A stretch of DNA of 64,000 nt. Source: Methanomicrobiales archaeon HGW-Methanomicrobiales-3 (lineage in GTDB: Archaea; Halobacteriota; Methanomicrobia; Methanomicrobiales; Methanospirillaceae). Under the pieces are notes generated by a model, which saw only the letters and a program-made list of their open reading frames with translations, was not told where the DNA came from and searched no databases. The translations under genes and the position numbers were made by a program. Where the stretch lies: the NCBI GenBank assembly GCA_002839605.1, contig PGYK01000008.1, positions 1 through 64,000 on the forward strand, given 5' to 3'. Positions within the stretch are counted from its first letter, which is position 1. Every line of letters starts with the position of its first letter. This document shows positions 34,719-37,281 of the stretch, piece by piece.

Positions 34719-35885
34719 TTAACCGACCCATTCAAGGACGCCGCCGCCACTTGGCTGGTCCCTGCCGCTCCGCCGTGGTGCAGGCATCTCGACTGCCTTT
34801 GGGTTGGAGCGCTTGTTGTCAATGTCCTGTACCATGGTCTTGTATGACGTGCGGGTGCCGAGGATCTGTGCGCTCTTGACACCGGTCATGATTGCAAGGA
34901 CGCGGATCTTGCCTTCCATATCGGCACGAACGCGGGCGCCCCAGATGACGTCAGCGTGGGGGTCGAGCTCGTACGTGAGCGAGGTTGCAACTTCTTCTGC
35001 ATCCTGCAGGGTAAGGTCGGTGCCGCCCGTGATGTGGATCAGGCTGCCGGTTGCGCCGCGGTAGTCGATGTCAAGCATCGGGTTGGAGAGACATTCGCGG
35101 ACTACGCTCTCGGCCTTGTTCTGCTGCTTGCTCTCGCCAACGAGCATGACTGCGACGCCGCCCTTGGACATGATGGCCCGGACATCTGCGTAATCGATGT
35201 TGATGAGCGACGGTTCCGTGATGGTCTCGGAGATGCCCTTGACGGTCTCACCAATGAGCTGGTCCATGACCGAGAATGCCTGACCGAGCGGAAGGTTCGG
35301 GACAAAGTTCTTTAACCGGTTGTTGTCGAGAACAATGACTGAGTCTGCGGCTGCGGCGAAGGCTTCAAGACCTTCCTCTGCGCGGATCAGGCGTGCTTTC
35401 TCAACCTGGAACGGGTAACTGACCATGCCGACGACAATGGCGCCCTGCTCTTTTGCGATCTGGGCTACAACGGGAGCGGAGCCGGTACCGGTACCTCCTC
35501 CCATACCTGCCGTGATGAAGACAAGGTCTGCTGATTCAAGAATTGCTTCAAGGGTCGGGCGGGCCATCTCGGCTGCTCGTTTCCCGACATCCGGGTAACC
35601 GCCGGCACCAAGGCCCTTGGTTAAGGATTTCCCGATTAGGATGCGCTTGTCGGCCTGGATCATGTCCAGGTGCTGCTTGTCGGTGTTGATCGCAATCGTT
35701 TCTGCACCGGATACGCCCATGTGGTGGATACGGTTCACGGTGTTGTTCCCAGCGCCTCCGCAACCGATGATGACAATTCTCGGCTGTCCGACAAAGTCAT
35801 CTTCCATTGCTGTAGCACTGCTTGCCTTGCTTACTTCTTTTTCAAGCTCGGCGTTTTTTAAAGCGTCGTTGATTATGCTCTGCAT
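34719..35885 (-). CDS. ftsZ: Cell division protein FtsZ
   Basis: Tubulin-like GTPase, 388 aa, that forms the division ring. The GTP-binding G-box is [16 protein letters not shown], with [17 protein letters not shown] at the N-terminus. The T7 catalytic loop reads [20 protein letters not shown] with the NxDxxD residues needed for hydrolysis in the next subunit. A short variable C-terminal tail ends GGGVLEWVG. The N-terminal extension (about 30 residues) is usual for archaeal FtsZ1. It is preceded by the ribbon-helix-helix gene (12-base gap), matching the cdrS-ftsZ operon known in haloarchaea. Confidence 0.97.
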
Positions 35886-35897
35886 TTCTCTACCCTC

Positions 35898-36077
35898 TCA
35901 AACCTTGAATGAAACCTGGTCGCTTTCCTTCAGGACACGGCTGGCGCGTTTTTCTACAAGATCCCGTACCGCCGCCCTTACAGCCTCGGAGATGTTGGGG
36001 TACTCCCCAGAATCAACCAGCTGCTGGAGGAGGTTGATCTGCTGTTCGGGCAACCGTAGCGTGATTCGTTGCATCAT
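35898..36077 (-). CDS. cdrS: CdrS-like ribbon-helix-helix regulator of cell division
   Basis: A 59-aa ribbon-helix-helix protein: [20 protein letters not shown] is the DNA-contacting strand plus first helix, and [20 protein letters not shown] the second helix. In haloarchaea CdrS is encoded upstream of ftsZ2, controls it and is needed for division; the same gene order here supports the name. An upstream Met at 36098 would add seven residues, but it lies inside the operator repeats and lacks a ribosome site. ATG at 36077 has GAGAG before it and is preferred; 36074 is also possible. Confidence 0.87.
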
Positions 36078-36090
36078 CGTATCTCTCAAT

Positions 36091-36150
36091 TCTGACATAT
36101 GTCTGGCTTATGTCATGCATATGTCAGACAAAGAGAACCCTTGTGTCTGA
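36091..36150 (-). promoter_or_regulatory. Putative CdrS operator: 11-bp-phased TATGTC array
   Basis: Read on the plus strand, TATGTC begins at 36098, 36109 and 36120, exactly 11 bases apart, and a related TGTGTC starts at 36142, a further two turns away. The first copy is part of a perfect palindrome GACATATGTC (36094-36103), and TCTGACATATG/CATATGTCAGA form a larger dyad. The array lies just upstream of the cdrS start, between it and a TATA-like element. This is the expected position for autoregulation by a cooperatively binding ribbon-helix-helix protein. Spacing is seen directly; the binding protein is inferred. Confidence 0.7.
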
Positions 36151-36184
36151 CTTAACCAGATGAAACAAAATACAGCATAGATAC

Positions 36185-36191
36185 ATATAAA
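36185..36191 (-). promoter_or_regulatory. Putative TATA box for cdrS-ftsZ
   Basis: TTTATAT on the minus strand lies about 108 bases upstream of the cdrS ATG at 36077, with AT-rich flanks. Transcription would start near 36160, so the phased TATGTC sites fall at and just after the start point, where a bound repressor would block RNA polymerase. Confidence 0.45.
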
Positions 36192-36270: not shown

Positions 36271-37281
36271 TTGGTGGTTGTTGACTTTCCCAAAAGGGTT
36301 ATACATGGAGGTACCGGAAAGCGCCAGCGGGAAAAAACCCACAAAAACGTGCTGGATTTCAGCGCGAGTGTCAATCCCTTCCCTCCGGCAATTGACTGGA
36401 ACGTCGATACAATAGATCTTTCCTGTTATCCGGACGATACCTACAGCGAACTCAAAGACCGGATTGCACAGGTCTTCTCCCGCGATCCGGCCGAGATCTG
36501 CGTTGGTAATGGATCGATCGAGATCATACGGGCATTCTGTTCTGTTACGCTCGGGCGTGCTGCAAAAAACGCAAAATTTTTTATTGAGCCTCCCACGTTC
36601 GGCGAATATGAACTTTCAGCCCGGCTGGCCGGGGCGGAGCGAACTCTTAATCCGGATGCCGCGGGCGTCTGTTTTGTCTGCAACCCCAACAACCCGACCG
36701 GGATTCTCCGGCCCCGCACGGAACTCCTTGACCAGCTCGACCACATCAAACGGAATGGTGGCCTGCTCTTCTGCGATGAGGCTTTCATCGGCCTCTCTGA
36801 CCCCCGCGAGAGCCTTGCCGGCATACAGGATCCTGCACTCTTTGTCCTCCACTCATTAACCAAAACGTTCTCGGTGCCCGGTCTCCGGATCGGGTTTGGA
36901 TTTGGAGATCCTGATCTTGTTGAGAAGATTGAAACTTTCCGGTGCCCGTGGAGCGTGAACGCACTTGCTGAAGCGTTTGCCATGGAAGCTCTGCTGCATC
37001 TCGATGAACTGGAAAAATCCCGGGATGCAATTTTCCGGGAACGGGACCGGCTCGTCTCTGCAATCAGCAGCCTTGGTCTTACCTGCATGCCATCAGCGGT
37101 CAATTACCTGCTGGTCGACTGCGGGCGAACTGCTACTCCCCTGTGTGAAGCCCTGGCAGGGCACAATATTCTTGTCCGGGACTGCACCTCCTTTGGCCTT
37201 CCGACAAGCATCCGCATTGCAGTGAGGACCCACGATGAGAACTCCCAACTGCTGGAGGCGCTGGCATCGTGCGTGCGCTGA
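36271..37281 (+). CDS. Threonine-phosphate decarboxylase (CobD-type)
   Basis: PLP-dependent enzyme, 336 aa, of the HisC-like fold-type I group. The N-terminal RVIHGGTGKRQREKTHKNVL followed by DFSASVNPFPP is the mark of the cobalamin enzyme that makes aminopropanol phosphate from threonine phosphate. VCNPNNPTGIL binds substrate and FVLHSLTKTFSVPGLRIGFG carries the PLP Lys. The downstream cobY gene overlaps by 13 bases and supports a cobamide role. The start is uncertain: TTG at 36271 or GTG at 36274, both with a GGGGCGGA-type site upstream. Histidinol-phosphate aminotransferase is the main alternative. Confidence 0.82.
   Translation: MVVVDFPKRVIHGGTGKRQREKTHKNVLDFSASVNPFPPAIDWNVDTIDLSCYPDDTYSELKDRIAQVFSRDPAEICVGNGSIEIIRAFCSVTLGRAAKNAKFFIEPPTFGEYELSARLAGAERTLNPDAAGVCFVCNPNNPTGILRPRTELLDQLDHIKRNGGLLFCDEAFIGLSDPRESLAGIQDPALFVLHSLTKTFSVPGLRIGFGFGDPDLVEKIETFRCPWSVNALAEAFAMEALLHLDELEKSRDAIFRERDRLVSAISSLGLTCMPSAVNYLLVDCGRTATPLCEALAGHNILVRDCTSFGLPTSIRIAVRTHDENSQLLEALASCVR

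Follow-up and report, generated by a model that had tools for sequence, protein, structure and literature searches.

A conserved six-unit GTCnGAC array upstream of cdrS-ftsZ2 in Methanomicrobiales, a probable autoregulatory operator of CdrS

The cdrS-ftsZ2 locus

The DNA analyzed (the window) comprises the first 64,000 nucleotides of contig PGYK01000008.1 of Methanomicrobiales archaeon HGW-Methanomicrobiales-3. On the minus strand of this window cdrS lies directly upstream of ftsZ2 (Table 1), an adjacency also found in the relatives checked outside the order. CdrS consists of a single ribbon-helix-helix domain (PF01402 above the cut-off), and its nearest solved relatives are ribbon-helix-helix antitoxins and NikR. 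The AlphaFold model contains both helices, the strand being without assignment in the monomer; the strand motif R-x-T-x-R is common to methanogen and haloarchaeal CdrS. A second close relative of CdrS was not found in the same genome. The start of cdrS was placed at ATG 36077 and not at the upstream ATG 36098, which begins the open reading frame and falls within the array described below, because an in-frame TGA separates the two codons in most congeners.

The C-terminal tail of CdrS (window 35898-35925) was nearly invariant though modeled with low confidence, and within the order its codons were nearly invariant as well (GAC, CAG and TTC in 32/32). This tail is a candidate partner-binding peptide or translation signal for ftsZ2.

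Table 1. Features of the cdrS-ftsZ2 region (window positions)
Feature	Position	Strand	Basis or remark
ftsZ2 (tubulin/FtsZ GTPase)	34719..35885	(-)	PF00091 and PF12327; 12 bp downstream of cdrS
cdrS, ribbon-helix-helix regulator	35898..36077	(-)	59 aa from ATG 36077; PF01402 30.2 bits, cut-off 20.5
Six GTCnGAC boxes in tandem with an 11-bp period; predicted CdrS operator	36086..36151	(-)	direct reading and order-wide in-register alignment
Unit 6 GTCAGAATTGA	36086..36096	(-)	
Unit 5 GCCAGACATAT	36097..36107	(-)	
Unit 4 GCATGACATAA	36108..36118	(-)	
Unit 3 GTCTGACATAT	36119..36129	(-)	perfect core; best-conserved of the six
Unit 2 GGGTTCTCTTT	36130..36140	(-)	degenerate, likewise in nearly all relatives
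Unit 1 GTCAGACACAA	36141..36151	(-)	perfect core
TATA box TTTATATG	36184..36191	(-)	
Divergent gene, cobD-like judged by eye	36271..37281	(+)	probably not the target of the array

An 11-bp tandem array between the TATA box and the start codon

Read along the coding (minus) strand from 36151 to 36086, units 1 to 6 follow one another with a period of exactly 11 bp, each unit combining the pseudo-palindrome GTCnGAC (7 bp) with an A/T-rich linker of 4 bp. A sequence-only reading of this DNA had described an 11-bp-phased array of TATGTC boxes, starting at 36098, 36109 and 36120, between a TATA-like element and the cdrS start. Direct reading confirmed these starts and also the palindrome GACATATGTC at 36094-36103, in which the first copy was placed, and the phasing and the location of the array were borne out. 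TATGTC as the repeat unit was ruled out, since conservation is limited to the GTC/GAC part; it is the junction between array units, and the conserved array comprises six GTCnGAC units. The TGTGTC reported as a further box is present at 36142, but it overlaps unit 1 and is not a separate box; the stretch that separates it from the other copies is unit 2, which is degenerate. Although nearly all genera show this degeneracy, the 11-bp frame runs on through unit 2. From the usual archaeal spacing, transcription of cdrS is predicted to start near 36161, and the array would therefore lie within the predicted 5' UTR.

The arrangement TATGTC-N5-TATGTC-N5-TATGTC occurred once in the window and in 0/100 shuffles. 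In a post hoc count, triples of any hexamer at any constant spacing from 7 to 30 numbered two in the window, where simulation gave a mean of 0.5, so that the evidence from the window alone is weak to modest. The strength of the evidence is comparative, and over the set of relatives it is overwhelming.

Conservation of the array within the order

The sequence-only reading had proposed looking for spaced boxes upstream of cdrS in related genomes, and had named their absence as a refutation; no such absence was seen, the array being found in every relative examined within the order: it was present at 94/94 loci from 29 genera and six families, a set that includes 35 Methanoregula loci, and no indel interrupted the six-unit frame. 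With one locus per genus, the best six-unit score ranged from 22 to 31 of 36 (shuffle maximum 21), and the mean best score was 27.4 at period 11 versus 14.9-16.7 at the other periods from 8 to 15. GTCnGAC box pairs occurred at lags of 11, 22, 33, 44 and 55, and information content was concentrated at the GTC and GAC positions, the linkers contributing little. The weakest fit to units 1 and 2 was seen at one locus, L074, where the frame is ambiguous. Between unit 6 and the cdrS start lay about 15-25 nt in nearly all loci, a length that varied by several bases while the internal spacing stayed constant, and a TTTATA-like element some 40 nt before unit 1 was the commonest arrangement among the relatives.

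A strict two-unit search of 134 genomes of the order matched 18 genomes, 15 of them at the cdrS promoter; the four matches away from cdrS promoters were isolated pairs, none of which extended into an array. In three genomes of the order (G059, G048 and G083; L265-L267, L292-L294) no cdrS match was obtained and only an ftsZ1-type ftsZ scored above the cut-off; cdrS and ftsZ2 appear to have been lost, or left unassembled, together.

In the genome of the window, further two-unit sites with at most two mismatches were not in excess (53 places versus 99 for the reversed control), the best of them lay at the 3' end of a gene, and no second array was found. This lack of a two-unit excess suggests that CdrS may be mainly an autoregulator in this organism, weaker or single-box sites being possible. 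A triple GACA match at C2:179923 was rejected because it belongs to a different sort of repeat, of the CCCGACA type.

In other families of the phylum, GTCnGAC arrays with 11-bp spacing were found before cdrS adjoining ftsZ2 (families f7, f24 and f25), and a few boxes at 10-12 bp occupied the same place in families f8 and f16.

GTCnGAC pairs at haloarchaeal CdrS targets

In Haloferax volcanii, ChIP placed CdrS at 18 sites, which show a symmetric motif and include ftsZ1 (-50) and dacZ (-47) from the TSS; hisB and a PRC protein are also on the list, and the cdrS promoter is not among the 18 (PMC8406309). We found GTCnGAC-N4-GTCnGAC, at a match of at least 10/12, in 11/12 haloarchaeal ftsZ1 promoters and 14/25 dacZ promoters (the other 11/25 were without a good pair); among 1445 control windows taken from these loci the frequency was 1.9%. 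The pairs lay mostly at about -60 to -68 from the ATG, in agreement with the ChIP positions, and nearly all of them just upstream of BRE/TATA, and boxes and ChIP targets were compared by promoter, position and symmetry, not by the published motif letters.

A Haloferax genome (G291), the CetZ of which is nearly identical to H. volcanii CetZ1 (4b46), carries two perfect GTCnGAC units before ftsZ1; pairs with no mismatch or one also precede hisB and PRC-barrel genes, a correspondence with the ChIP list that rests on the kind of gene and not on locus tags. In this genome (L381-L415) the pair with at most one mismatch occurred 50 times versus once for the reversed pattern, an excess that may come partly from GTC/GAC codon use; some of these sites lie between genes, ahead of hisB, PRC and zinc-ribbon genes, and others are within genes. 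Because the pairs sit at the ftsZ1 and dacZ promoters where ChIP placed CdrS, GTCnGAC at 11-bp spacing is very probably what CdrS reads (the CdrS box), and the array very probably an operator through which CdrS regulates its own operon. This would make GTCnGAC the likely CdrS recognition sequence for the phylum.

The haloarchaeal cdrS promoters (L214-L234) carry a related element, GTAAGAC-N4-GTCTTAC; in the haloarchaeal genomes searched, its only mismatch-free copies were at cdrS. In Halobacterium the cdrS promoter was the only site in CdrL ChIP, and CdrL, reported only from Halobacteria (PMC7439475), has a ribbon-helix-helix domain of its own. Since CdrL ChIP found this promoter only, the element is probably the CdrL site and a strong candidate for the CdrL operator.

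Proposed autoregulation by CdrS and alternative explanations

We consider it probable (about 80%) that the array serves cdrS-ftsZ2 as its autoregulatory operator, bound by CdrS dimers that repress the operon and set the dose of its products. Each dimer would bind one GTCnGAC box via its antiparallel strand pair (R-x-T-x-R). As the boxes are 11 bp apart, neighboring dimers would lie on the same face of the helix, which favors side-by-side binding, and up to six of them could line up, probably cooperatively, along the ~66 bp that closely follow the TATA box. CdrS on the array would block initiation or early elongation and thereby lower both CdrS and FtsZ2, a negative feedback that would set the dose of the division protein FtsZ2. 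Archaeal regulators located at or downstream of the promoter usually repress (PMC8406309), and we infer negative autoregulation because the array is downstream of the TATA box and over the predicted early transcribed region. Autorepression by CdrS had also been the conclusion of the sequence-only reading, and the order-wide array and the GTCnGAC pairs at ftsZ1 and dacZ support it. The array, its conservation across the order, the ribbon-helix-helix family of CdrS and the GTCnGAC unit at CdrS-bound promoters are established here; binding by the methanogen CdrS, cooperativity, repression and the dose-setting role are what we infer.

CdrS might bind the array and activate cdrS-ftsZ2, giving positive feedback, as reported for ftsZ2 in Halobacterium, where deletion of cdrS lowers ftsZ2 in early log phase (PMC7439475); CdrS is also thought to activate ftsZ1 in Haloferax (PMC8406309). 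We regard this as unlikely for the methanogen operon, since haloarchaeal activator-type boxes lie upstream of BRE/TATA, whereas those of the array follow the TATA box and precede the start codon, where archaeal repressors are usually located (PMC8406309). That a DNA-binding protein other than CdrS occupies the array is very improbable: the Halobacterium cdrS promoter is known to bind CdrL, and the related element described above is found essentially only at haloarchaeal cdrS promoters, but reports of CdrL are confined to Halobacteria, the array shares its GTCnGAC box with the CdrS ChIP targets, and the genome lacks a second close CdrS relative. There is scarcely a case for the array serving the divergent cobD-like gene. 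This neighbor is kept in many genera of the order, but the array keeps its distance from the cdrS start, downstream of the cdrS TATA box, and outside the order, where cdrS-ftsZ2 has different neighbors, the boxes are still found before it.

The repeats could also act as RNA, in a structured 5' leader controlling translation or elongation. The array falls within the predicted 5' UTR, shuffled versions of the window leader fold less well than the leader itself (z -3.4), and the center bases of units 1 and 3 are complementary at 0.79 versus 0.52 expected. On the other hand, the leader folds well because the array units are self-complementary, and such units fold in many ways, with pairing partners that differ between genera. 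RNAalifold on 28 genera gave ~0 kcal/mol; the consensus fold was empty, and no conserved covarying structure was found in the leader of these genera. Linker positions of the unit 1-unit 3 stem were without convincing covariation, and the covariation at the unit centers possibly reflects lineage history or operator symmetry. A spacing of exactly 11 bp is a constraint imposed by the DNA helix, and the GTCnGAC unit also occurs upstream of haloarchaeal promoters, outside the transcript concerned. An RNA function is very improbable, as is a foreign binder, and repression by CdrS bound to the DNA remains the preferred explanation.

Relation to known systems

Arc and MetJ are small ribbon-helix-helix repressors that autoregulate through tandem boxes. 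Together with omega and ParR/parC they resemble the present system in that a small ribbon-helix-helix protein regulates its own synthesis via such boxes; they differ in that the array described here belongs to the chromosomal division operon of an archaeon and is not known to act in partition. In plasmid R1, parC consists of direct repeats around the promoter (PMC5016525). SegB of Sulfolobales is likewise an archaeal ribbon-helix-helix protein with sites upstream of its own operon and a suggested feedback, but its sites are 13-bp TCTAGA-S-TCTAGA palindromes, dozens of them genome-wide, and its role is in chromosome segregation (PMC12284271).

Tandem iterons upstream of genes for an adaptor and a tubulin-family GTPase are a parC/tubC-like layout, and the order of iterons, small DNA-binding protein and tubulin-family GTPase recalls tubC-tubR-tubZ and parC-parR-parM, which we offer as a lead only. 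TubR is a winged-helix protein, and CdrS is a ribbon-helix-helix protein. It is conceivable, and at present quite speculative, that a filament of six CdrS dimers on the array contacts the FtsZ2 polymer as in ParR-parC or TubR-tubC and so couples the locus, or expression from it, to the state of the division ring.

CdrS, ribbon-helix-helix autoregulation and phased ribbon-helix-helix operators are already known. In the literature searched we found no earlier account of a six-box array on cdrS-ftsZ2 maintained across an order, and its occurrence on this chromosomal division operon appears undescribed. So far only haloarchaeal CdrS has been studied as a means by which archaea set the amount of division tubulin, and a deeply conserved operator with a defined box would provide a concrete feedback circuit for cell division in methanogens.

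The haloarchaeal CdrS regulon (PMC8406309, PMC7439475) shares with the methanogen system a ribbon-helix-helix protein encoded beside ftsZ2, the R-x-T-x-R strand and GTCnGAC units 11 bp apart (ftsZ1, dacZ). It differs in that its boxes are pairs upstream of the TATA boxes of other genes and CdrS has not been reported at the cdrS promoter, whereas the six methanogen boxes follow the TATA box of the regulator's own gene, cdrS, and nowhere else in the genome does a site stand out. Autorepression is not conserved in these haloarchaea, because cdrS is not a ChIP site in H. volcanii and, in Halobacterium, CdrS activates ftsZ2 and CdrL binds the cdrS promoter. The deeply conserved operator suggests that haloarchaea may have rewired an ancestral loop of CdrS on cdrS, with CdrL brought in and CdrS moved to ftsZ1 and dacZ. 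The putative CdrL operator resembles the methanogen array in that it stands at the corresponding place before cdrS and consists of related 7-bp units, two of them, with 11-bp spacing; it differs in its outer half-sites, which are GTA and not GTC, in having only two adjacent units, and in its binder, which by ChIP is CdrL. Further copies of GTAAGACA and GTCTTAC were seen in the haloarchaeal cdrS leaders (L214-L234).
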